NCBI GenBank assembly: GCA_026394495.1
Contig: JAPKYE010000025.1
Location: forward strand, 1 to 64,000
Direction of reading: 5' to 3'
DNA: 64,000 bases
From: Methanobacteriota archaeon
Lineage (GTDB): Archaea > Thermoplasmatota > E2 > DHVEG-1
Shown here piece by piece: positions 9,800 to 22,406 of this stretch. Each line of letters starts with the position of its first letter. The stretch's first letter is position 1. The translations under genes were made by a program, and so were the position numbers. The notes below the pieces were generated by a model. That model saw only the letters and a program-made list of their open reading frames with translations, was not told the DNA's origin and did not search any database.

Positions 9800-9873
9800 G
9801 CCGCCGTAGCTTAGCCCGGTTGAGCGGCTGATTCGTAATCAGCAGGTCGAGGGTCCAAATCCCTTCGGCGGCT
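9800..9873 (+). tRNA. tRNA-Thr (anticodon CGT)
   Basis: Acceptor GCCGCCG/CGGCGGC, anticodon stem-loop GCTGA-TTCGTAA-TCAGC, T-arm GGGTCCAAATCCC, discriminator T. Confidence 0.92.
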
Positions 9874-9874
9874 T
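9859..9874 (+). repeat. att direct repeat, left (within tRNA-Thr 3' end)
   Basis: ATCCCTTCGGCGGCTT identical to 18031-18046. Confidence 0.9.
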
Positions 9875-9913
9875 CCGACATAAAGTATATATTACTATCA
9901 CAATATTCTACTT

Positions 9914-11128
9914 TTGATTAGTATGGGCACCCATAATCCAAAAAGGAAACTAGAAACAGCCTTTAACAACATAATACACCTGAAAACAACACCGAACAAT
10001 AAGAACGAAATCAAAGAATTCATCGAGTTTCTAGCAGCACAAGGGGTAAAAGAACTACGACAAGTCAAATACATCTATGCACTTGGGAACATAGCACTCT
10101 GGTTGAAAAAAGATTTCTTGGTTGTTTCTAAGAAGGATATAGAGAAACTATGCAGCGACCTAGAAAAAGGAAAATACACAGCTTGGACGAAACACGATTA
10201 CCGTGTGGCCATCAAAAAATTCTACACCTGGTTACGAAATAAAAATAATGATGATATGGACGAATGGACGACACCAAAGGAAGTCAAATGGATTAAGGTA
10301 CGTTCACCATCAGGCAGCAAGAAACTTCCTTCTGATTTGTTAACACCGGAAGACATACAATTATTGGTAGAGTCCTGTAGAAATCTACGAGAAAAAAGTT
10401 TGATTTTGTCAGTATACGAAACAGGTGGAAGAATAGGAGAAATTTTAAATTTGAAAATAAGGGATTTTAATCCAGATGATTTTGGTGCAATGTTAAATCT
10501 GAATGGTAAAACAGGATATCGAAAAATCAGAATCGTTGGTTCTGCACCCGCCATAAGCCAATGGCTTGCACTTGAACACCCTAAACGCGACGATAAGGAA
10601 GCATTTTTATTTTGCAATATACAGAACACGGGGGAGGGGGAAGCACTCTCATACGACGCAGCTGATAAACTATTAAAAAAAATTGGTGCCAGAGCAGCTA
10701 AAAAAGGATTCAATAAAAAAGTACATTTTCATCTATTTAGACATAGCAGATTATCTGAACTCAGTGAATACATGAACGATGCGCCATTAAGGGCGTTTGC
10801 GGGGTGGCGTTCAGGGAGTAATATGTCAGCGGTTTATACGCATATTGCAGACACGAATAAAATAATATTGGAAATGAATGGGTTGTTGGAAAAAAAGAAA
10901 GGAGAGACGGGGGGATTTAGAGAAATAGTATGTCCTCGATGCAATACCAAGAATTCCCACGGTGATAAATATTGTTCTCAATGTAGTTTAGGATTAGACG
11001 CGAGAGATATTATGGAATACACAAATATCAAAAAAGAAGCGCTGAAACAACTCGACAACCAAATTAATGTCGAAGCAATCATTAAGATGGTGATGGAAAG
11101 ATTAGAAAACCCAGGAGAGAAAAAATAA
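9914..11128 (+). CDS. int: Tyrosine recombinase/integrase with C-terminal zinc ribbon
   Basis: ETGGRIGEILNLKI (Arg I), HLFRHSRLSEL (HxxR), GWRSGSNMSAVYTHI (catalytic Tyr), then CPRCNTKNSHGDKYCSQC; TTG start at 9914, ATG alternative at 9923. Confidence 0.92.
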   Translation: MISMGTHNPKRKLETAFNNIIHLKTTPNNKNEIKEFIEFLAAQGVKELRQVKYIYALGNIALWLKKDFLVVSKKDIEKLCSDLEKGKYTAWTKHDYRVAIKKFYTWLRNKNNDDMDEWTTPKEVKWIKVRSPSGSKKLPSDLLTPEDIQLLVESCRNLREKSLILSVYETGGRIGEILNLKIRDFNPDDFGAMLNLNGKTGYRKIRIVGSAPAISQWLALEHPKRDDKEAFLFCNIQNTGEGEALSYDAADKLLKKIGARAAKKGFNKKVHFHLFRHSRLSELSEYMNDAPLRAFAGWRSGSNMSAVYTHIADTNKIILEMNGLLEKKKGETGGFREIVCPRCNTKNSHGDKYCSQCSLGLDARDIMEYTNIKKEALKQLDNQINVEAIIKMVMERLENPGEKK

Positions 11129-11130
11129 AT

Positions 11131-11814
11131 TTAATCAGCTTCAATAAAAAAAGCTATTCCTTCTTTATCTTTTGTTTTCTTGTATTTCAAAGCGGCAACG
11201 AGCCCTATTTTATCTTCGATATCGCATAACCATTGAGCCATCGCTGTTTTTTCTTTCATAGAACATTCATCTAAAAAATCTAGTCCAAACACTGAACCAG
11301 TGATGTTTATATCAGACAATATCGGAACATCTAAACCTTTTTTATCCGCAACATCATCAAGTAATTCAGATATATTTTCGATGGATGAAATAGACCATGC
11401 ATCTATCTTTTGTTTGATGATGTATTTCCAAATTTCTTCGTGAAATTTTTTTGAGAGAGTATATTTTGTTTTTTTTTCATCTATTGTTTTAGTCAAAAGT
11501 TTTGATTTCACCAGTTTAGATAAAAAATTTGTTAGATTATTTCTATCAGTAATACAATCCTTTACCAGGATATTATTTTTATAGAGAGCATCTAATTTTT
11601 TTCCAAAAAAAGTTTTCATTTTTTTTTCATTGATAATGTTATCGTGATTTGGAGCGAGCGCATACCTAAAATGATGTTGTTTCAGACCATTTTCCCGTCC
11701 CTGGAACTCATATGTCAGTGCAAGGATGCTGCGATACCAATCTTTTTTAAGATAGTCTTCAAAGTCCATATCTTGTCCGTCTCTGCAAACTAAAACACAT
11801 GAATGTATTGGCAA
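11131..11814 (-). CDS. Hypothetical protein, possible wHTH regulator, convergent with int
   Basis: 227-aa ORF; NNLTNFLSKLVKSKLLTKTIDEKKTKYTLSKKF looks like a winged-helix segment. Confidence 0.6.
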   Translation of the reverse strand: MPIHSCVLVCRDGQDMDFEDYLKKDWYRSILALTYEFQGRENGLKQHHFRYALAPNHDNIINEKKMKTFFGKKLDALYKNNILVKDCITDRNNLTNFLSKLVKSKLLTKTIDEKKTKYTLSKKFHEEIWKYIIKQKIDAWSISSIENISELLDDVADKKGLDVPILSDINITGSVFGLDFLDECSMKEKTAMAQWLCDIEDKIGLVAALKYKKTKDKEGIAFFIEAD

Positions 11815-11835
11815 TATTTAAATACTAGCTAGGAG

Positions 11836-12006
11836 ATGCACATTAACATGGCTCGAAAAATTGGCGGAAAAAAAATGCATGGTCTATTCATCCGTCTAGA
11901 ACAAGAACAAATGGAACAGCTTAGAACTCTTAGTAGAGAAACCAGAACACCCTGTGCGTGTCATCTGCGAATTGCAGTAATCCGTTACCTCGGAGAGAAA
12001 AAATGA
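11836..12006 (+). CDS. Small RHH/MetJ-Arc-like DNA-binding protein (56 aa)
   Basis: MHINMARKIGGKKMHGLFIRLEQEQMEQLRTLSRETRTPCACHLRIAVIRYLGEKK; beta-strand plus two-helix pattern; overlaps next gene by ATGA. Confidence 0.6.
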   Translation: MHINMARKIGGKKMHGLFIRLEQEQMEQLRTLSRETRTPCACHLRIAVIRYLGEKK

Positions 12007-12137
12007 CGGCAGTTGAAAAATATCAAGAGAAATTTTGTAAGAGGTGCAGCAAAAAAGCACATTGTTCATCGAATGGCATTGAAATTGTCTCGTGTGCTCT
12101 TACGAAGCTTGCTCAACTAGAGACGCAAAAAAGTTAA
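12003..12137 (+). CDS. Small Cys-containing protein (44 aa)
   Basis: MTAVEKYQEKFCKRCSKKAHCSSNGIEIVSCALTKLAQLETQKS; start overlaps upstream stop. Confidence 0.5.
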   Translation: MTAVEKYQEKFCKRCSKKAHCSSNGIEIVSCALTKLAQLETQKS

Positions 12138-12156
12138 ATTAAAAAGGTGAAGATAT

Positions 12157-12345
12157 ATGAGAAATGGAAATGAAACTTTTGGAACAACTTTTACTTTTGG
12201 GGTTGTTGTACGCGGTGAGCTCGCAGAGATAAACAAACTTATTGATTTTTTAAAACAAAACAATCTCGTTGTCGCATATCAAGAAATCGGTCAACATAAA
12301 ATGTGGATTAAAACTGGAGGCGACAGCGATGACCGGAAATACTGA
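12157..12345 (+). CDS. Hypothetical protein (62 aa)
   Basis: Preceded by AAAAAGGTGA ribosome-binding site; overlaps helicase start. Confidence 0.55.
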   Translation: MRNGNETFGTTFTFGVVVRGELAEINKLIDFLKQNNLVVAYQEIGQHKMWIKTGGDSDDRKY

Positions 12346-14344
12346 ACATACTAAAAAACTAAAACTAATAGAAGGACAGATAAAAAAAAGAGAAGATGAC
12401 GAAGCGGAACAACTCACCCAACAGGACATGCACGAAATTGACAAAAAAATTGACGAAAAGGAGCAATTCACCGAATATCTAGACAAAATCATGGACACAA
12501 ACGAAGACTGGCAGAAGTTTAAAATAATTCCAGCATTAAGCGGCATTATCAAAGTTGATGGCGAAGAGACCTTCTATCATACGGTGTTTGCTCAGAAACA
12601 AGGCCATTATACACCTATTGTCTTAACGAGCCAGGGGCGTCTATATTCCGTGTGTAACAATGCGTCCATCCTCGTTTCATCATCCCAGGACCCTAACGAC
12701 ACGAAATACAAAGACGAAGAAGGAAATCCTATTTATAACGAAGTTAAGGATGTACCTTTAGAAGAACGGTACCAATATTTTAAAATTGGCGCGGTCACCT
12801 ACAAATACATACAACCTATTTTTTGGAATGATGACCACAGCATACATATGGTTGATAATACAGCCATTCATGATGTCATCAACAAAAAAGAATACACAAA
12901 ACAAATATTTAATGACAACAAAAAAATCATACAGGATTATTTCTACCATCCAAACGAATACGAATATGATGTTCTCTGCACAGCGGATATAATATCATAC
13001 ATCAAAGATGTTCTTGGAAATGTCTTCTATCTATGCCTGTACGGTGGCCCGTCAACGGGAAAATCTGTGGTGATATGTCTTCTCTCATTTCTTCAATACC
13101 ATGGTTATTTTACTGGCAAGGGAACGATACCAAGCAGTTGTCGGCTTCTCCATTTCTATGGTATCAGTCTCAATCAAGATGAGTTCGAGAAGATGCGTCA
13201 AGATGAAAAAACCGTGTTGGTGAACATCTTCAATAATGGGTTCAATTCTTATGGCAGATATACGCTCTCAAATATGGGAGTTAAAGACATCACAAAGCAA
13301 GCCCTTGGTTTGAAGACGTTCGGGATGAAATCATTTACTTGCAATGACCTAGGAGGTTTTGATACATCATTCATAGATAGATTATACACAATTTTATCAG
13401 TAAAGACAAACAAGAAACTAAAAAACATCTATCGACTTTCATCAGATGAACTCAAACGATTTCAGGATATGCGAGACAAACTTTTTGTTTACTGTCTTTT
13501 TCATTGGAAACAAATACAAGATGATATAGAGACCACGCGGGACACTCTTGAAGCAAAAGATATCTTCGGAAGAGAGACCGATAAAAACAGCATAATCCTT
13601 GGAATAATAAAACATTTCATGGGTGAAGATTACGCCAAGAAAGTTCAAGCATACATTGCAGTAAAAGCGCCGGTGTCACAGCTTGAACATGTTAAAACCA
13701 TGGAATATGTTCTTCTGGATACCATCATTAAAAAATGCGATGCGAACAAACCAGCAGCGTTTATTGATGTCTCAAATGAAGAGCTTTATCAAAAACTTCT
13801 AAAGGAGCTTGATTGCCAGGAGGGAGACCAATATGCGCCAACGAATACCAAACCTCGTAAGATTCTTGATTCTCTTGGGTTGACAAGTAGAAAAGAAAAT
13901 TTAGGCATGGAGCACGGTGGAAAACGTACTTACCACATTAACACTCTTGAGCTCATCAACACATTGAAGAGCAATAATTATAAGGAATTATTACCGAGTA
14001 CGTCCTGGCAAGAAAGCCTCACCACGCTCACCCCCCTCACCACGCTCACCAAAACTGGTGAGGGCGGTGAGGGAAATGAGGGCGGTGAGGATACAAGACT
14101 AGAACAAGATAAAAATTCTCATCTTTCAAATAAAAATACTATCGACCAGGCCAACGACACACGAAAACTCCAGGAATTCATATCTGCCAGTAAAAACAAG
14201 GTTGTATCTAAAAAAGCTGTCATCTCTTTTATCAAATGTGTTTTGAAGAAATATAATCCAGATGATTATTACTCCCATCTTCTGCAATATGGTATCTTGA
14301 CTTTCTATTCTGGGAAAGGTGTAATGTTCACAGGAGGAACATGA
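12329..14344 (+). CDS. Replicative helicase/primase-type AAA+ ATPase of plasmid/virus type
   Basis: Walker A GGPSTGKS, acidic Walker-B-like LNQDEFEK, low-complexity TTLTPLTTLTKTGEGGEGNEGGED linker, C-terminal domain; ATG at 12329 in ORF 12269..14344. Confidence 0.75.
   Translation: MTGNTEHTKKLKLIEGQIKKREDDEAEQLTQQDMHEIDKKIDEKEQFTEYLDKIMDTNEDWQKFKIIPALSGIIKVDGEETFYHTVFAQKQGHYTPIVLTSQGRLYSVCNNASILVSSSQDPNDTKYKDEEGNPIYNEVKDVPLEERYQYFKIGAVTYKYIQPIFWNDDHSIHMVDNTAIHDVINKKEYTKQIFNDNKKIIQDYFYHPNEYEYDVLCTADIISYIKDVLGNVFYLCLYGGPSTGKSVVICLLSFLQYHGYFTGKGTIPSSCRLLHFYGISLNQDEFEKMRQDEKTVLVNIFNNGFNSYGRYTLSNMGVKDITKQALGLKTFGMKSFTCNDLGGFDTSFIDRLYTILSVKTNKKLKNIYRLSSDELKRFQDMRDKLFVYCLFHWKQIQDDIETTRDTLEAKDIFGRETDKNSIILGIIKHFMGEDYAKKVQAYIAVKAPVSQLEHVKTMEYVLLDTIIKKCDANKPAAFIDVSNEELYQKLLKELDCQEGDQYAPTNTKPRKILDSLGLTSRKENLGMEHGGKRTYHINTLELINTLKSNNYKELLPSTSWQESLTTLTPLTTLTKTGEGGEGNEGGEDTRLEQDKNSHLSNKNTIDQANDTRKLQEFISASKNKVVSKKAVISFIKCVLKKYNPDDYYSHLLQYGILTFYSGKGVMFTGGT
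14018..14089. repeat. Inverted iteron array, (CTCACCNNN)x4 / (GGTGAGNNN)x4, 9-bp period
   Basis: CTCACC at 14018, 14027, 14036, 14045; GGTGAG at 14057, 14066, (AATGAG 14075), 14084; 6-bp centre AAAACT. Confidence 0.85.
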
Positions 14345-14571
14345 TTCGTTTTCCTCGGTGCGCGCCATCACGCATCCGATGTAAATATTGCGGTTATTCC
14401 CCATTGGAAATATGGGCTTTTCATTTCTATAAAACATGGGTGAACACAGGAAAACCAAAATCGTGTTACGAACCTGTTCTTGTATGTAGTGACAAATCAG
14501 GTCGCTCTGGTTGTGGTTGCATCTTTGATATTTCTGAATTTGATTTGAAAATAAAGGACTTGGTGAAATGA
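14341..14571 (+). CDS. Zinc-ribbon protein (76 aa)
   Basis: CRYC-type pair IRCKYCGYS plus SGCGCIFD; overlaps helicase stop. Confidence 0.6.
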   Translation: MIRFPRCAPSRIRCKYCGYSPLEIWAFHFYKTWVNTGKPKSCYEPVLVCSDKSGRSGCGCIFDISEFDLKIKDLVK

Positions 14572-14807
14572 ACGAAAATAAATTGAAATTTGAATACAAT
14601 AAAAAATCGTATGGTTGGAAGCAAGAGAGAAAAAAATTTCTAGTAAATGATTTGTATCAGGCTGAGCTAGACCAACCAAAGATGTTTATGATGGGTACGA
14701 CAATAAAAGAAACAGATGAGGGAATACTGGTATCAACCTCCGATACTGAATTGAAATCGGTTTTAGACAAAGCATATTGTAAAAGGATGGGGATAAAAAA
14801 AATATGA
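14568..14807 (+). CDS. Hypothetical protein (79 aa)
   Basis: Overlapping ATGA start with preceding ORF; intact frame. Confidence 0.5.
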   Translation: MNENKLKFEYNKKSYGWKQERKKFLVNDLYQAELDQPKMFMMGTTIKETDEGILVSTSDTELKSVLDKAYCKRMGIKKI

Positions 14808-14819
14808 TAGAGGTATATC

Positions 14820-14948
14820 ATGAGTAATAAGCGTCAACACCCATCAACGTACTTCAAGACAGCTCTAGAGATTTATAACGATGAACATAAGAACCAACCT
14901 ATAAAGACATCAAAGAAGAAAGGGGAAGATAAGTGTTGTATATGGTAA
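14820..14948 (+). CDS. Small basic protein (42 aa)
   Basis: MSNKRQHPSTYFKTALEIYNDEHKNQPIKTSKKKGEDKCCIW; tightly spaced after previous gene. Confidence 0.4.
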   Translation: MSNKRQHPSTYFKTALEIYNDEHKNQPIKTSKKKGEDKCCIW

Positions 14949-14951
14949 AAA

Positions 14952-15080
14952 TCCCATTGGAATTCCATTGGATTTCCAATAAAATACCCGTGATTTACCC
15001 CATGTTAGAGGCATCAAAATCCAAGAAATCCATAGAAATGGCGAGGTAATTCCATGATTTCCATAGAAATCCAAGAAAAA
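14952..15080. promoter_or_regulatory. Cluster of short direct/inverted repeats (operator or origin-like)
   Basis: CCATTGGAATTCCATTGGATTTCCAAT; AAATCCAAGAAATCCATAGAAAT (15017-15039) and TTTCCATAGAAATCCAAGAAAAA (15058-15080). Confidence 0.5.
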
Positions 15081-15620
15081 ATACGAGAGTTATTCAATAG
15101 CGGAAATAGTATCGCAGCTATTGCGCGGACGCTTACGATTGATTACAAGACAATTAAAAAATACCTGGACAAAACCAATGACCTACGTACCTCACCGCCA
15201 GTAACACAAACAACAATCAAAGAGAACAGTGTTTTTTGTCCTAAATGCACATCGATGTTGGAATTCAGAGAAAACGAGGATGTGGTCATCTGTCCTACTT
15301 GCAGTTTCCGGATTTTGACAGACCCTGAGATGGGCCATTTTGTTTGCAGTCATTGCAAAGAACCGGGTTGTTTGTTTTCTATTCGTTTCTCTTCAAAATG
15401 CGTTCCAGGTGTGTATGCTTGTGGTCCTGGTATGCACCGCGTAAAATATGTTCAATCCTGTTGTCCTGCTTGTAATAATCGTTTTTTTGTGCTGCATGAT
15501 GGTGTGCATGAGACAACAACAACGTGTTTTCGTTGTCTTGAGAAACTTGTTATCGACCCAGTTGGTAGAGCTGTCAGAGTAGGAAGGCTCTGTGGTGTTA
15601 CATCTTCTGATAACGATTAG
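15054..15620 (+). CDS. HTH protein with multiple zinc-ribbon CxxC motifs
   Basis: EIQEKIRELFNSGNSIAAIARTLTIDYKTIKKYLDK (Hin/resolvase-like HTH) followed by FCPKC, ICPTC, VCSHC, CCPAC, TCFRC. Confidence 0.7.
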   Translation: MISIEIQEKIRELFNSGNSIAAIARTLTIDYKTIKKYLDKTNDLRTSPPVTQTTIKENSVFCPKCTSMLEFRENEDVVICPTCSFRILTDPEMGHFVCSHCKEPGCLFSIRFSSKCVPGVYACGPGMHRVKYVQSCCPACNNRFFVLHDGVHETTTTCFRCLEKLVIDPVGRAVRVGRLCGVTSSDND

Positions 15621-15674
15621 CAAAACAATAGGTATCTTAAAGAACTTTGTCAGGAATAATGGGAAGGTGAAATA

Positions 15675-15998
15675 ATGAAAACGAAGAAAGGTTGTGAGAA
15701 AATAGAGGCAATTGAAACGGACATTTTAGCATCTGTGTTCACCCCTGAGTTTATGAACATTATTATAAATTGGTACGATGACCCTAGAACCGAACCAGGA
15801 TTAACAAAATTGGGTAAAGAAATTGATGATGTACTCAGTGGGAATAGCGCATCCATTGCAATAGGTTCTTGTGCGAAGGCTATCCTTATGGTTATTGAAA
15901 CGACTGGCCCAGAGGAATTTTTGAAAGCAATACAAGAAATTAAGAAAAATGATAAAGATTTCAAAGTAAATGAATTAATGTCGAACTATATAAGATAA
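15675..15998 (+). CDS. Hypothetical protein (107 aa)
   Basis: Preceded by AAGGTGAAATA RBS. Confidence 0.55.
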   Translation: MKTKKGCEKIEAIETDILASVFTPEFMNIIINWYDDPRTEPGLTKLGKEIDDVLSGNSASIAIGSCAKAILMVIETTGPEEFLKAIQEIKKNDKDFKVNELMSNYIR

Positions 15999-16007
15999 GG
16001 TGAAATA

Positions 16008-16325
16008 ATGAGAATAGATATCAATAAAAAATTTTTAGATGATTGCAGAAAGAAAGCATTAAAAATATTTGATGAACGTTTGAAAAGTGTATGTAAAGAC
16101 CTAAATAGCGATGTAATCGAAGACATAGAAGAAAGTGGTTATGATGGTTTTGATGATATTGTAGAAAGCATTGACGAACATCATACTGAAGAATGGGTTG
16201 ATGAAAATATAGGAATTCTTGAAGGTTACAACGATATTTTAGATAAAGAATTTTGGCAACCAATACGAGAAAAAATATTGAAAATAGATTTTTATTCTTT
16301 GTTAAAAAATGATAAGGTGAAATAA
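16008..16325 (+). CDS. Hypothetical acidic protein (105 aa)
   Basis: Preceded by AAGGTGAAATA RBS. Confidence 0.55.
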   Translation: MRIDINKKFLDDCRKKALKIFDERLKSVCKDLNSDVIEDIEESGYDGFDDIVESIDEHHTEEWVDENIGILEGYNDILDKEFWQPIREKILKIDFYSLLKNDKVK

Positions 16326-16556
16326 TGAGCTATCGAAGAAGTGGACGATTGTTAATGACCGGAAAAAAAAGTTGTCCTGTTGTCTGTTCCGGTGGAACTT
16401 TGGTCGGATTCTGGCGCTAGTACCTCAGTTTTGATGTAGCTATTCACGACATCATGTGCCATTATCATCTCGTTTGGGTCTATCCAATAGGCGATATCAC
16501 CAGCAGTAGGAACATCTGTAAATTTTGGATTGTATTTTGATGACACGTCAGCGCTG

Positions 16557-16570
16557 CGTGAGTCACGTAG
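16557..16570. repeat. 14-bp repeat with palindromic core (copy 1)
   Basis: CGTGAGTCACGTAG, identical to 17860-17873. Confidence 0.75.
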
Positions 16571-16714
16571 CGTTTTTAATTCATCTTTGTGTGTGGTGAG
16601 GTAAATGAAATAACTGTTCGATGCATACGAATTTTCGGGTAAGACTTAATTATGTCACAATGACAATAAAAATTAATATAAATAAGCTACACGATAAAAT
16701 ATCTCATAGGTGAA

Positions 16715-17263
16715 GTGAGTTTGTCGAAAAAATCAAAACAGCGAAGTAAAACATTTTTAAAATCTAAAAATAAGAAACCGGTTTTTATGCCTATTGTGCG
16801 TGAACCAAAAAAAGATATGTTGGCCATCGCCGCTGGTGCTGGCCTCGGTGTAGTCCTACCAACTGTTCTGAAGAAATATTATGATGTACCAGTTCCGGTG
16901 ATTGGACAGTACATACCTGCGCCATGGAACAGAACCAGTGTGTTCATACCGGTTGTTGCAGGTGGTGGAAGTTTAGCCGCATCTTTTTTTGCGCCGAAAG
17001 GAACTGTTCAGAGTTTTCTGTTCGTGTTCGGAATAACATCGTTGATAGCTGGTGTCATCTCTGCGCTTCTGCCGTCGGCATCATCTGCGCCACGAGCTGC
17101 GATGCCTGTTCGCCGGTCTTTCGCACCTCCAACGGTGCTAAAAGCCGGTTGTGGCTGCAAACAGGGCGCTGTTAATTCGACTTTCCAAGGTTCACCAGTA
17201 AAAACATTTCTCAACGGTGTAGAAAGTGTGACTTTTCACTCTGACCAAGTAATTCTTGCATAA
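16715..17263 (+). CDS. Membrane protein with basic N-terminus (candidate virion/envelope or conjugal protein)
   Basis: Hydrophobic segments AIAAGAGLGVVLPTVL, VFIPVVAGGGSLAASFF, FLFVFGITSLIAGVISALL; Lys/Arg-rich first 30 aa. Confidence 0.6.
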   Translation: MSLSKKSKQRSKTFLKSKNKKPVFMPIVREPKKDMLAIAAGAGLGVVLPTVLKKYYDVPVPVIGQYIPAPWNRTSVFIPVVAGGGSLAASFFAPKGTVQSFLFVFGITSLIAGVISALLPSASSAPRAAMPVRRSFAPPTVLKAGCGCKQGAVNSTFQGSPVKTFLNGVESVTFHSDQVILA

Positions 17264-17299
17264 TCAGTCACAAGTGCCGTAACAACAAAAACAACAACC

Positions 17300-17422
17300 A
17301 TCGCTAAGGGCGGTGCGATACTTCACCGTTTGCACCGCCCAAGCATTCCTATTCCAAGATTGAAAGGAAAGAAAGACCTTTTGGGAGAAGACCGTACTCC
17401 CTTCTCTCAAATTTTCTTTCTC
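17300..17422 (+). ncRNA. Candidate structured RNA or terminator region of the element
   Basis: 9-bp perfect stem GGGCGGTGC (17308-17316)/GCACCGCCC (17332-17340), then GGGAG (17383-17387)/CTCCC (17397-17401) with outer GAAAG/CTTTC. Confidence 0.4.
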
Positions 17423-17434
17423 AGAGGTGTTTAA

Positions 17435-17632
17435 ATGGTCGACGACGAAATTAAAAAATCTGTTTGTGATTTTATATCCTCGAAGAAATTTTTTACTACA
17501 CGACGGATTTCGCGTGATTTAAATATCCCTGTTCACACCGTGAGTACAATTTTGCGTGTTCTTAATGCAGAGGGAAGAATTGAAGTCTACAATCGACGAA
17601 CCTGGAAGACCATCAAAGAGCCGCTGATATGA
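17435..17632 (+). CDS. Small winged-HTH transcriptional regulator (65 aa)
   Basis: FFTTRRISRDLNIPVHTVSTILRVLNAEGRIEVYNRRTWKTI. Confidence 0.75.
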   Translation: MVDDEIKKSVCDFISSKKFFTTRRISRDLNIPVHTVSTILRVLNAEGRIEVYNRRTWKTIKEPLI

Positions 17633-17853
17633 CGACGACCAGCCAGATGATGCAAATGTTCATTGACCTGCATTTTATCCACCAGGAAGCGAGAGATATT
17701 CTCACGAAACTATCTGAGACTGGCGATATTGTTCCGTTTCTAGCTAGCAAGTCCTATCTGTGGGAAGTTCTAGGCTTTTTGAGCAAGCATCGTCTCGCGC
17801 TCGATGACGGTGCGGCCCTCTACACGATGGTCAAAGAACATCTGACACCATAG
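17629..17853 (+). CDS. Hypothetical protein (74 aa)
   Basis: ATGA overlap with preceding HTH gene. Confidence 0.5.
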   Translation: MTTTSQMMQMFIDLHFIHQEARDILTKLSETGDIVPFLASKSYLWEVLGFLSKHRLALDDGAALYTMVKEHLTP

Positions 17854-17859
17854 AGATTA

Positions 17860-17873
17860 CGTGAGTCACGTAG
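17860..17873. repeat. 14-bp repeat with palindromic core (copy 2)
   Basis: CGTGAGTCACGTAG, identical to 16557-16570. Confidence 0.75.
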
Positions 17874-18030
17874 TCACTGATAGTTAACTCACATATATAA
17901 TTCTAATAAAGAAAACTGGATAAAACCGTGTTAATCGTTGTTCGCTAATAGTATATAAATGTATCATTTTCTGAGATTTCCACCTGATTTCAGCTGTTTT
18001 TTAGGTTAGTAAACTATAGTTTTTTACTAC

Positions 18031-18046
18031 ATCCCTTCGGCGGCTT
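18031..18046 (+). repeat. att direct repeat, right (tRNA-Thr 3' remnant)
   Basis: ATCCCTTCGGCGGCTT identical to 9859-9874. Confidence 0.9.
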
Positions 18047-18150
18047 TCTTTTATATGGTATAAAACAGGGTAAACAAGCCGCATATTCATTATTTTTATT
18101 AATAGAAAATATATTATAGTACAAATATATTTCAGTATTGGAGGTACAAA

Positions 18151-19182
18151 GTGGAGTTTGTACCAGTCCGTGGTGAACAACAGATGCAGATGCAGGTATC
18201 CTGTCCAACATGCACGGCAATAACCGTGATCAAAAAAGGAAAACAAACAACAAAAAACAATGTTATCCAACGGTACCAGTGCACCCTATGCAACACAACC
18301 TTTATCTCGAGAGGATTTCCTCATAAAACATACCGTGCACAAGTCATCATCGACGCACTCATTACATATAATCGTGGATACACCCTAAAAGAAACCCAAA
18401 CCATCATCAACAAAAAATACAAGACACATACGTCCACAAGCACGATACAACGATGGATCCACGAACAATCGGATACCTGCACCTACTCCCGTTTACGCCC
18501 CGTTCTTTCCAACACATATAGCCCGGAATCAATCATCGTCTCCAAACATTTCACCTACAACGGACTCGCCTACAATTTTAAATACCATCGCGGCAAAAAC
18601 GAAATTCTCGGCAGTCTTTTTCCCACTCTTGCCACCTACATACAACGATTTGAAAACGGCTGCCCCTCTTTTTTCTCTGAAATAGAACACCGATGCTCCA
18701 CCCAAAAACTCCCCATAACGATACAAAAAAAGGAGGATACAAACATTGTCAACAAACTCACAGCACTCGCACTCAGCAGCTCTCATACACCAGCGGCACG
18801 ACATGCCCACGTTGAAACATTTCTCCTCTTAAATGATCATGCCACCGTTGCCGTCGAAGTCCCAGTCTGGTTCTGGGAAAAACAGCCAGGATTTGGTATC
18901 GCAGGACACATCGACATCATCCAGATTCGAGATGGATGCGTATATATTCTCGACTACAAACCAGATGCAGCAAAACAAAATAACCAAACCGTTGCCTCAC
19001 AACTCTACCTCTATGCCCGAGGTCTTTCATTTCGCACAAACATTCCCCTTGAACAGATGCGATGTGCATATTTTGACGAAAAAACATACCTTGAATTTTC
19101 ACCAGAAGAAGCAATCGTTTCCTACCCACAAAAGACAACAGGATACAGCAACAAAAATAATGACACAACAGGTATGAAATAA
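18151..19182 (+). CDS. Transposase-type zinc ribbon + HTH fused to RecB/Cas4-like PD-(D/E)XK nuclease
   Basis: N-term CPTCTAITVIKKG...YQCTLCNTTF and HTH YTLKETQTIINKKYKTHTSTSTIQRWI; C-term GHIDIIQIRDGCVYILDYKP...ASQLYLYARGL (GhxD, DxK, QhxxY). SD GGAGG upstream, GTG start. Confidence 0.75.
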   Translation: MEFVPVRGEQQMQMQVSCPTCTAITVIKKGKQTTKNNVIQRYQCTLCNTTFISRGFPHKTYRAQVIIDALITYNRGYTLKETQTIINKKYKTHTSTSTIQRWIHEQSDTCTYSRLRPVLSNTYSPESIIVSKHFTYNGLAYNFKYHRGKNEILGSLFPTLATYIQRFENGCPSFFSEIEHRCSTQKLPITIQKKEDTNIVNKLTALALSSSHTPAARHAHVETFLLLNDHATVAVEVPVWFWEKQPGFGIAGHIDIIQIRDGCVYILDYKPDAAKQNNQTVASQLYLYARGLSFRTNIPLEQMRCAYFDEKTYLEFSPEEAIVSYPQKTTGYSNKNNDTTGMK

Positions 19183-19262: not shown

Positions 19263-19484
19263 ATGGTGGAAGTATTTGAAGCAAGACTACGAAAAATAGG
19301 AAACTCACTTGGCATTCTTGTTCCTTCTAACATCATCGAAGGACTCGGTTTTCACAAAGGAGATGTCATCCACGTCGCCATTCCGCCATCAGGAACCATA
19401 AAAAGAAACGAAATACTTCTAGAATTAACAGGTATTGACAAAAAGAAAACCTCTTTTAAAAGAGAAAAAGAGGATCGATACTGA
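19263..19484 (+). CDS. vapB: AbrB/MazE-fold antitoxin
   Basis: FEARLRKIGNSLGILVPSNIIEGLGFHKGDVIHVAI. Confidence 0.85.
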   Translation: MVEVFEARLRKIGNSLGILVPSNIIEGLGFHKGDVIHVAIPPSGTIKRNEILLELTGIDKKKTSFKREKEDRY

Positions 19485-19894
19485 TGTTTTTAGACACATC
19501 AATCATCATTGAAATCTTCCGCAACGAAAAACAAACGAAAACATTCCAGGATATTTATAAATATATCAAAGAAGAACCACTTTTTATATCACTTGTCCAG
19601 ATAGGAGAACTCTCAGATTGGTGCTTGAAAAATCAAATAGACCCAGAAAAACGCATCAACAAACTAAAACAGATTCTAAACGTGATACCACTGAATGAAA
19701 AAATATGCTATGATGCTGCTCAAATAAAATATACTATGCGTAAAAAAGGCGTAGAAAAATTTGGTCTTCTTGATGCAATTATCCTTGCAAGCGCACGATC
19801 AATCAATCAAAAATTATTAACTATGGACAATGATTTCAGAACACTCCACGATGCAATAGTTTTACGGTTAAGAAAAAAGAGGTTTACTTCGTAA
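19484..19894 (+). CDS. vapC: PIN-domain toxin ribonuclease
   Basis: MFLDTSIIIEIFRNEK, IGELSDW, FGLLDAIILASA, LLTMDNDFRTL. Confidence 0.88.
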   Translation: MFLDTSIIIEIFRNEKQTKTFQDIYKYIKEEPLFISLVQIGELSDWCLKNQIDPEKRINKLKQILNVIPLNEKICYDAAQIKYTMRKKGVEKFGLLDAIILASARSINQKLLTMDNDFRTLHDAIVLRLRKKRFTS

Positions 19895-19917
19895 AAAATA
19901 ATAATTGTTTTTTTTAA

Positions 19918-20270
19918 TAATGAAAACGCCGCTCGTATTTCTTATGAGGTAACCACTCAAGAATAATCGTGAGAATAACAACATCATCTGCTTTTACAGA
20001 ATATAACAATCTCCAACCTGATGGTAAATCATATTTCCACAAATTATCAATCCCATATTTTTTCACATATTCCACAGGAATGAGTCGTTTCGGGATGAAA
20101 ATACCACAGGTATATTTCTCTTTGATGTCATCAAAAAACCCGATTGAGCTAAATATAGAGCTGTTTGTCTTCAGTAGTTGTCGTCTTGAGTTTTTCATAC
20201 GCATTCTTAATATGTTTATCCGCAAAGACAACTTTTACCGTTCGACGATCAGCTGTATTCATGACACCCA
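19918..20270 (-). pseudogene. RelE/ParE-like toxin, disrupted
   Basis: N-part MNTADRRTVKVVFADKHIKNAYEKLKTTTEDKQLYI* then LNRVF in the same frame, continuing DDIKEKYTCGIFIPKRLIPVEYVKKYGIDNLWKYDLPSGWRLLYSVKADDVVILTIILEWLPHKKYERRFHY in another frame; in-frame TAG plus an extra T in a T6 run. Confidence 0.7.
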
Positions 20271-20531
20271 CAGATCTTTTCGTTTCAGATATTTACGCAC
20301 ACCCGCTGGATCCCAAATCCAGCCAACCTTTCCTCCACCATCAACCGCGATTTTATTAGATTCAAGAAGATAATCAAAGACGACACAAAATGTCTGATAC
20401 ATCATCTTTCTAGGAAGATGCTCCCAGAGTTTACGTTTTTTATATTCCCCTGAATTTTTTTGAACGAATTCCTCAACCATCAAAACCGTATCCAGTTGGG
20501 GATAATGTAAAATATCAGTCCTCTGCCGCAT
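20259..20531 (-). CDS. wHTH-like partner of the RelE-type toxin (putative antitoxin)
   Basis: HYPQLDTVLMVEEFVQKNSGEYKKRKLWEHLPRKMMYQTFCVVFDYLLESNKIAVDGGGKVGWIWDPAGVRKYL; overlaps toxin start. Confidence 0.65.
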   Translation of the reverse strand: MRQRTDILHYPQLDTVLMVEEFVQKNSGEYKKRKLWEHLPRKMMYQTFCVVFDYLLESNKIAVDGGGKVGWIWDPAGVRKYLKRKDLWVS

Positions 20532-20639
20532 ACTTGTTATATAATTATATACAACACAGTATTTATAGTTTACGCATACCAGGAGTTAAACAACAGTGAA
20601 TCGATAAAATTCATCAGAAAGCAACATAGGCTGTAAAAA

Positions 20640-21013
20640 GTCACAAAAACTGGAAACAAAAAGCAAAACAGTTGGGAAACCAAAAGTGACACCGATGAGA
20701 AATGAAAAGCGACACAAACGGGAAATGCTAGGCGACACAGATGGGAAATCAAAAGTGATACAGATGGGAATTTCCCAGGTGACACAGATGGGAAATATCT
20801 CTCGGAGAACACAGATTCAACGAAGGCAATTTTAGGTGCTACAGTTGGGAAATGGAAAAGTGATATGGTTGGGAAATGATTTACTCCTGGGAAATACAGG
20901 TCAATGAACCCTGCTTTTTACGGGTCAACGAAGGACTTTTCAGGTGACAGAGATGGGAATTAGCGGGTTTTCGAGAGGGAAATGCGAGGTATCGACTTGG
21001 GAAATACCAGATT
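20640..21013 (+). repeat. Degenerate tandem repeats, unit ~GTGACACAGATGGGAAATNNNNN
   Basis: More than ten imperfect copies such as GCGACACAGATGGGAAAT, GTGATACAGATGGGAAT, GTGACACAGATGGGAAAT, GGTGCTACAGTTGGGAAAT, GTGATATGGTTGGGAAAT. Confidence 0.75.
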
Positions 21014-21400: not shown

Positions 21401-21880
21401 ATGAAAGCAAACCAAAAAATTATAGAGGCAGATGACCACGCAGTATCAGCAGTCATAGGTGTAATCCTTATGGTTGCCATTACTGTAGCAATCGCAGCAA
21501 CCGTATATGTCTACGTCAGTGGAATGATCGGCGGAACAAAACAAACAACACCTAATGTAGCTTGCACAACAGATCCAACTGCAAATAAAATAACTGTTGC
21601 TACCGCAGATGCAGCTATAAAATGGAAGGATATAGTAATTACAACTGATAACGGGACTTTCGGTACTGGTGCTAGTGCCGCCTCTGTGAATTGGACAATT
21701 TATACTGGTGGTGGTATAAATGCTCAAACAAGTAACATAGCGATAACCGATGCTGCGATAGATGTTTCAGCAGGAGATTATATTTACCTCAACTGGGGAA
21801 CTCATACCGGTAATGTCAAAGTAACATTAGCATATACCCCTACAAACTCATTACTCGGTTCGTGGACAGTTAACGTCTAA
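21401..21880 (+). CDS. Archaeal type IV pilin / archaellin-like N-terminal domain protein
   Basis: DDHAVSAVIGVILMVAITVAIAATVYVYVSGMIGG class III signal/hydrophobic helix. Confidence 0.9.
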   Translation: MKANQKIIEADDHAVSAVIGVILMVAITVAIAATVYVYVSGMIGGTKQTTPNVACTTDPTANKITVATADAAIKWKDIVITTDNGTFGTGASAASVNWTIYTGGGINAQTSNIAITDAAIDVSAGDYIYLNWGTHTGNVKVTLAYTPTNSLLGSWTVNV

Positions 21881-21992: not shown

Positions 21993-22406
21993 ATGAAAGT
22001 TGACAGAAATATAAAACAAAACGAACACGCTGTTTCAGCAGTCATCGGCGTCACACTCATGGTCGCAGTCACCATCGCAATGGGAGCTGTTGCCTATGCT
22101 TATTTTACAGGGATGATCGGTGGTAATCAAAAAGTAGCGACACCAGCTATTGCGTTTACAAAATCCGATTCAGAACATACAATCACCGTCTCAACAGCAG
22201 ACATAGGCGTTAATTGGGAAGATGTCAACATAACTTTTACCAACGGGATAAGCGCAGATTTTCTTGAGAAAACCGGTCCCCTTAGCGCAGGAAATACAAT
22301 AAATCTTGATACGGACCAATCTCTTACCGGAGAAGTAACTGTTGCATTTCGACATGTTCCTTCGAATTCACAGCTTGGAACGTACATATTCCAAAACGTC
22401 TCGTAA
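21993..22406 (+). CDS. Archaeal type IV pilin (second tandem copy)
   Basis: NEHAVSAVIGVTLMVAVTIAMGAVAYAYFTGMIGG. Confidence 0.9.
   Translation: MKVDRNIKQNEHAVSAVIGVTLMVAVTIAMGAVAYAYFTGMIGGNQKVATPAIAFTKSDSEHTITVSTADIGVNWEDVNITFTNGISADFLEKTGPLSAGNTINLDTDQSLTGEVTVAFRHVPSNSQLGTYIFQNVS

Follow-up and report, generated by a model that had tools for sequence, protein, structure and literature searches.

In this study, a gene encoding a zinc-ribbon/helix-turn-helix (HTH) domain fused to a RecB/Cas4-like PD-(D/E)XK nuclease was followed up in a 64,000-nt stretch of archaeal DNA (the window, meaning the whole stretch that was analysed), and we propose that the fusion nuclease and a cognate array of short direct repeats make up a two-part element, which would spread arrays and turn over the adjacent surface-protein genes. 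We give this reading a probability of roughly 0.5. It fits because protein and array co-vary, because arrays multiply and disperse, and because the gene spreads horizontally and decays. The first-pass annotation of this DNA described the fusion gene but missed the repeat arrays and the surface-gene neighbourhood, which are the informative features. Coordinates of the features are collected in Table 1.

Table 1. Features in and around the fusion gene, in window coordinates.
Feature	Position	Strand	Basis or remark
attL, ATCCCTTCGGCGGCTT, tRNA-Thr 3' end	9859..9874		sequence match
attR, ATCCCTTCGGCGGCTT, 16-bp copy of tRNA-Thr 3' end	18031..18046	+	sequence match
Shine-Dalgarno GGAGG	18140..18144	+	read from sequence
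Zinc-ribbon/HTH - PD-(D/E)XK nuclease fusion gene	18151..19182	+	intact ORF, 343 aa, GTG start
Zinc ribbon, residues 17-52 (invariant C18, C21, C44, C47)	18199..18306	+	profile matches and alignment
HTH region, residues 63-105	18337..18465	+	IS1 model spans residues 18-108; three helices in AlphaFold model
RecB/Cas4-like nuclease core, residues 214-322 (H218, E222, D255, D268/K270, Q284, Y288)	18790..19116	+	profiles, alignment, C-terminal model
MazE/VapB-like antitoxin	19263..19484	+	sits between nuclease gene and array
VapC-like PIN toxin	19484..19894	+	PF01850 2.9e-15
Array of 10 direct repeats, motif RRGYGACACAGATGGGAAAT	20637..20962	+	motif-free spacing search
Core of dispersed element, sharp right boundary (...GGGAATTAGCGGGTTTTC)	20753..20972	+	common to dispersed copies in same genome
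Secreted archaeal type IV pilin gene	21401..21880	+	PF07790; after array
Second type IV pilin-like gene	21993..22406	+	

Models of IS1/IS1595 transposases match the N-terminal part of the protein weakly but consistently (NF033558, 3e-6, residues 18-108; NF050000, 1.4e-5; PF03811, 1.9e-4), and PD-(D/E)XK models match the C-terminal part (PF12705, 2.1e-4; phrog_298 exonuclease, 3e-6; Cas4, 2e-4 to 7e-4), each of these scores lying below its curated cut-off. A chance origin of such weak matches is implausible since the features are conserved over many divergent homologues. In an alignment of 17 family members, several of them from other phyla, the four cysteines of C18PTC21 ... C44TLC47 are invariant together with H218, E222, D255 and Q258, and D268, K270, Q284 and Y288 are conserved at 90% or more. 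The motifs GHxD (D255), DxK (D268/K270) and QhxxY (Q284, Y288) are present, accompanied by H218-x3-E222. AlphaFold modelling of the domains, which the first-pass annotation had proposed as a check, gave a pLDDT of 85 for the whole protein and 93 for its C-terminal part, with a RecB/Cas4-like fold, and the best PDB matches of the C-terminal model in Foldseek were DinG (9kqh), the Sulfolobus Cas4 SSO0001 (4ic1), AddAB, MGME1 and an Argonaute-associated Cas4, a likeness at superfamily level only because the TM-scores are low (about 0.35). Judged from profiles, alignment and model, the fusion of a transposase-type DNA-binding domain with a RecB/Cas4-type nuclease is real, and both domain assignments of the first-pass annotation stand; the two CxxC pairs are separated by 22 residues, not by the 25 it had given. 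Extra cysteines at residues 110, 171, 182 and 305, kept in most family members and absent in a divergent sub-family, may form a second metal site.

Domains DDE, HUH, Cas1 or recombinase were looked for in the fusion protein and none was found. The match to the transposase model NF033558 ends at residue 108 with 27 bits against a cut-off of 100 and the C-terminal fold is RecB-like, so that the DDE catalytic domain is absent; no HUH/Y1 tyrosine transposase was found either, Pfam and NCBIfam giving PD-(D/E)XK only. The iron-sulfur cysteines of Cas4 (C-terminal C-x2-C-x5-C) are absent from the alignment, in which the zinc-ribbon cysteines alone are invariant and a single conserved cysteine lies near the C-terminus, and the Cas4 model TIGR00372 scores 19.4 bits against a cut-off of 65. 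A family already described with a housekeeping role had been considered beforehand as a way in which the proposal could fail; comparison with Pfam, NCBIfam, PHROG and PADLOC models gave no curated family that covers the protein, and the open-access literature searched contained no description of it. The fusions described in a phylogenomic study of Cas4 are others, and the words zinc and transposase are absent from that paper (PMC5704561). The family is undescribed, and we rate it as new in kind because no known family accommodates it.

The gene starts 104 nt past attR and therefore lies outside the integrated element, directly beside its right att site as the first-pass annotation had it, and it carries its own Shine-Dalgarno sequence. 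The element itself (9859-18046, about 8.2 kb, in tRNA-Thr) has a 16-bp att repeat and encodes a tyrosine integrase (9914-11128); most of its genes match no family, and it probably represents a small virus or plasmid of archaea. Downstream of the nuclease gene follow, in order, the VapBC pair with two small reverse ORFs, the repeat array and the two type IV pilin genes. The VapBC pair and the two reverse ORFs, the latter with no assigned family, fill 19263-20531; the antitoxin is probably a later insertion between nuclease gene and array, and the pair shares about 72% DNA identity with one in G014 (L052 17006-17644). AbiE-type genes lie near other nuclease loci (L008, L040, L045 and L052). No cas genes were seen near the nuclease gene or in the homologue neighbourhoods inspected, and the arrays are not CRISPR-like, in agreement with the earlier statement that no CRISPR locus is involved. 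Inspection of the ORF list by eye picked out exosome- and proteasome-like ORFs, which together with the type IV pilins give the window an archaeal look; its host may be related to DHVEG-1 of the Thermoplasmatota.

Clustered downstream of most homologues are direct repeats of about 20 nt, nearly all pointing the same way. Arrays of 3-9 same-orientation repeats were found at 12-13 nuclease loci and two copies beside each of three bacterial-MAG loci, so that comparable arrays adjoin homologues in the same order, in a distant order, in Altarchaeum and in bacterial MAGs. They comprise, for example, 7 repeats in G022, 5 in G024:C178, 6 in G000:C133, 8 in G024:C44, 6 in G035 and 3 in Altarchaeum, and extend over 200-420 bp with spacing that is irregular yet conserved across genera (23/25, 25, 43, 36, ~106). 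At G009:C149 the array lies upstream of the nuclease, beyond AbiE genes, and in G144, which comes from elsewhere in the phylum, the divergent nuclease gene and a NosD gene flank it on either side. No array was detected for the divergent sub-family (G014, G015, G032, G034). A CRISPR or guide-RNA array was considered and rejected, as the spacing is irregular and RNA structure is not supported (fold z-scores of -0.36 and +0.47, an alifold z of -1.9 with weak covariation, and nothing in Rfam that reached the gathering score).

The repeat core is locus-specific (GCAAC.GATTTTGAACG; GTCCCGAGTTTTGGACG; TACCAACTAGATTTTGAA; CCACTCGATGATTGGAAA), and its similarity tracks that of the protein. With repeat instances chosen by hand, the Mantel correlation between motif and protein was 0.55 (p 2e-4), and the partial correlation for the DNA-binding domain, controlled for the nuclease domain, was 0.36 (p 0.006). 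Matches to the exact repeat pattern are concentrated in genomes with the nuclease gene or its remnant; in a 400-kb control from G020, which is without the nuclease gene, the sole repeat cluster is coding, and matches to the repeat matrix number 4 and are scattered. The DNA-binding domain alone also heads DDE transposases of about 390 aa in the same genomes, one of which was checked and is of IS240 type, and these relatives were rejected as owners of the arrays, their loci holding no motif copies.

The array in the window, whose motif differs, was missed by the first array matrix and located by a motif-free search for spacing. Its ten repeats, starting at 20637, 20660, 20683, 20706, 20729, 20752, 20776, 20833, 20857 and 20941, lie about 1.45 kb downstream of the nuclease gene; seven matches with at most 3 mismatches compare with 0.05 expected, and no other cluster of at least six repeats occurs within the 64 kb. 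Toxin-antitoxin genes separate it from the gene, so its assignment as the putative cognate of the nuclease draws on analogy with the homologous loci. The host genome contains 63 matches to the window motif (at most 3 mismatches) against 0 for the reversed control, including about 10 further gene-less arrays of at least three copies on other contigs, most of them spaced 23-23-24-57-24-84. Ungapped alignment showed that ten copies have a common core, eight of them being 65-82% identical, with flanks at the chance level of 27%; at such identity these copies must be old. In G023, two gene-less copies of 421 bp at unrelated sites are 95.7% identical.

Among the 20 arrays scored by hand, mostly nuclease-linked, the next same-strand gene was secreted or surface-like (pilin, NosD/beta-helix, beta-propeller, PKD or Ig-like) in 14, against 18% at large intergenic gaps of G020 (binomial p ~5e-7), a control rate that comes from a crude signal-sequence test, and surface-like genes adjoin 39% of large gaps anyway. 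As a rule, the array has the nuclease gene on one side and the surface-protein gene on the other. In the window's own genome, gene-less arrays occur near surface genes in either orientation, some arrays lie beside housekeeping genes, and many lie 3' of genes. The occurrence in both orientations weakens the array as a strict promoter mark of surface genes.

Comparison of orthologous sites within one genus revealed that arrays and surface genes, with or without the nuclease gene, are present or absent in blocks. A 2.43-kb block of G023 (array plus beta-propeller gene) is missing in G020 and G021, where the flanks are contiguous, and G019 and G022 carry other genes at its site. At L135 8250-10683, compared with L198, L199, L200 and L201, the intergenic space next to a pdxS-like gene is a hotspot, empty in two species and occupied by different surface or membrane genes in three. 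Similarly, where G022 has nuclease, array and at least four surface genes, nothing is found in G020 and G023, and one surface gene in G019. Deletion rather than insertion could be the cause, as G019, the most distant genome of the genus, has different surface genes at the same spots. The surface gene by one G024 array is 95-99% identical in its interior to the distal gene of a cluster in G025, another species, with identity falling to 91% and 83% at the ends, a profile that suggests cassette exchange.

Based on these observations, we propose that the DNA-binding domain would recognise the array repeat, that several protein copies would assemble on the array, and that the nuclease would cut DNA there or at a target, the break then being mended by host recombination. 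Cutting and repair would putatively spread non-autonomous, REP/MITE-like copies of the array, and the surface-protein genes beside arrays would be gained, lost or exchanged as a result. Transposition chemistry is not evident, because neither a clean target-site duplication nor terminal inverted repeats were found at the G023 insert or the own-genome copies, and the protein has no DDE, HUH, Cas1 or recombinase domain. A wider claim would be that archaea and some bacteria have a new class of system for moving DNA or for rearranging it in a programmed way. In such a system, one RecB/Cas4-type nuclease, equipped with a DNA-binding domain taken over from transposases, would act on its own array and on dispersed ones and would move or exchange surface-protein genes without known transposase or recombinase chemistry. 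We regard this as possible, with the odds against it, and family and arrays may turn out to be an ordinary mobile element of an unusual kind.

The main rival to the repeat-array element is a system for surface variation, in which the nuclease would break the array upstream of an expressed surface gene and repair would swap or convert that gene from paralogues. The same-strand position of the array upstream of a surface gene in 14 of 20 cases argues for it, as do the G144 locus, where the nuclease is divergent yet the array points to the NosD gene, the G024/G025 gene with its high internal identity and lower ends, and the precedent of trypanosomes, in which breaks in 70-bp repeats upstream of VSG genes drive switching (PMC3610638). 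However, the own-genome arrays adjoin surface genes in either orientation or lie by housekeeping genes, the 20 loci were scored by hand against a control rate from a crude signal test, surface-like genes are common at large gaps in any case, and no silent donor genes came to light that have arrays in common with a single expressed site; we consider surface variation unlikely. Alternatively, the arrays might be operator clusters of a transcription or chromatin regulator that controls the surface genes, the nuclease being inactive or incidental: direct repeats at fixed spacing resemble cooperative binding sites, and a surface gene often follows the array at a distance of 100-450 nt, the interval holding a TATA-like sequence of archaeal type. 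Retention of the catalytic residues, invariant or at 90% or more, is unlike a domesticated regulator, and the many own-genome arrays 3' of genes also count against such a role, which appears improbable.

Decayed transposon debris, with arrays left by an unrelated IS and the nuclease a chance neighbour, would explain that the arrays are dispersed and old and that the DNA-binding domain is common to IS240-type DDE transposases of the same genomes, but it is at odds with the motif-free loci of those relatives, with the co-variation of motif and nuclease protein and with the recurrence of arrays at the nuclease gene across phyla, and its probability is low. Regulator and debris are both less likely than the two-part element or surface variation. 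The first-pass annotation had proposed a nuclease with sequence-specific targeting, possibly for defence or mobile-DNA processing. Sequence-specific DNA targeting is probable, and a mobile-DNA character is supported by patchy distribution and decayed copies. Anti-virus defence by such targeting, to which generic PADLOC matches of Cas4/DruK type and the toxin-antitoxin and AbiE genes in some neighbourhoods might point, is very improbable: inspection of the homologue neighbourhoods, also proposed there, brought out repeat arrays and surface-protein genes but no defence partner that recurs, the host genome itself carries the candidate recognition sites, and viral relatives are almost lacking, with one weak, nuclease-only relative in viral contigs and none in the phage and plasmid collections.

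The distribution of the family, in draft assemblies that are mostly of MAG type, is patchy. Matches occur in 19 of the 52 genomes of the host's order, some being the DNA-binding domain only, in 18 of the 390 genomes sampled from the phylum (E<=1e-25) and in 1 of 29 in the phylum of Altarchaeum; further members come from MAGs whose labels, the sole basis of assignment, read Aenigmatarchaeota, Torokbacteria and Actinobacteria. Several divergent and broken copies are common within single genomes. In the tree, the window gene has a long branch and groups with sequences from Altarchaeum, Aenigmatarchaeota and bacterial MAGs, away from the second copy of its own genome, at a weakly supported fork. 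These observations fit a gene that spreads horizontally and decays. The second copy (L039 9811-10777, G000:C133) is interrupted by one TAG and has its own array with a different motif. At L024 582-2364, a separate PD-(D/E)XK ORF (PF12705 3e-10) lies directly upstream of a transposase with SWIM, zinc-ribbon/HTH and DDE (IS240) domains, a TnsA/TnsB-like pairing that was not seen at other DDE relatives.

If the nuclease acts on the arrays, it would represent a mobility or diversification system built on a PD-(D/E)XK enzyme without a DDE, HUH, tyrosine, serine or Cas1 recombinase, and a directly testable mechanism for the gain, loss and exchange of surface proteins in uncultured archaea; these proteins are the hypervariable part of the genome, through which viruses and partners are met. 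Even a merely selfish element would add an undescribed nuclease family with locus-specific, apparently co-evolving DNA sites, and for that reason protein-DNA specificity could be tested from sequence pairs.

The family shares the fold and the H...E...GHxD...DxK...QxxxY motifs with Cas4/RecB/AddB/MGME1-type nucleases (PF12705, PF01930), but differs by its IS-type DNA-binding domain and by the lack of a Cas1/Cas2/CRISPR context, a helicase partner and the C-x2-C-x5-C motif. With IS1/IS1595/IS240-type transposases it has in common the N-terminal four-cysteine zinc ribbon and HTH, whereas a RecB-type nuclease replaces the DDE domain, and terminal inverted repeats and target duplication were not found. 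Tn7 has ends with repeated binding sites of about 22 bp, and its TnsA is a PD-(D/E)XK nuclease; the combination of such a nuclease with multi-site repeats recurs here, although without a TnsB-type DDE partner or a TnsC/D target system and with the array on one side only. In trypanosome VSG expression sites, too, a surface-protein gene directly follows a repeat array; the repeats differ, and breaks there drive switching (PMC3610638), while here switching is at most putative. No dedicated nuclease is known to act at the VSG sites. RAYTs belong to the HUH/Y1 enzymes, and REPs form hairpins. Like RAYT-REP systems, the present one has a transposase-related gene by repeats and many dispersed gene-less intergenic repeats (the window array being taken as cognate from homologous loci), but its enzyme is a PD-(D/E)XK nuclease rather than an HUH/Y1 protein, and its arrays are unstructured direct repeats with fixed spacing. 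PD-(D/E)XK homing endonucleases are also stand-alone nuclease genes with a patchy distribution; instead of a single intron or intein insertion site, the candidate recognition array here adjoins the gene and has many dispersed copies. In concept, the putative element may be seen as analogous to RAYT/REP or to a homing element.
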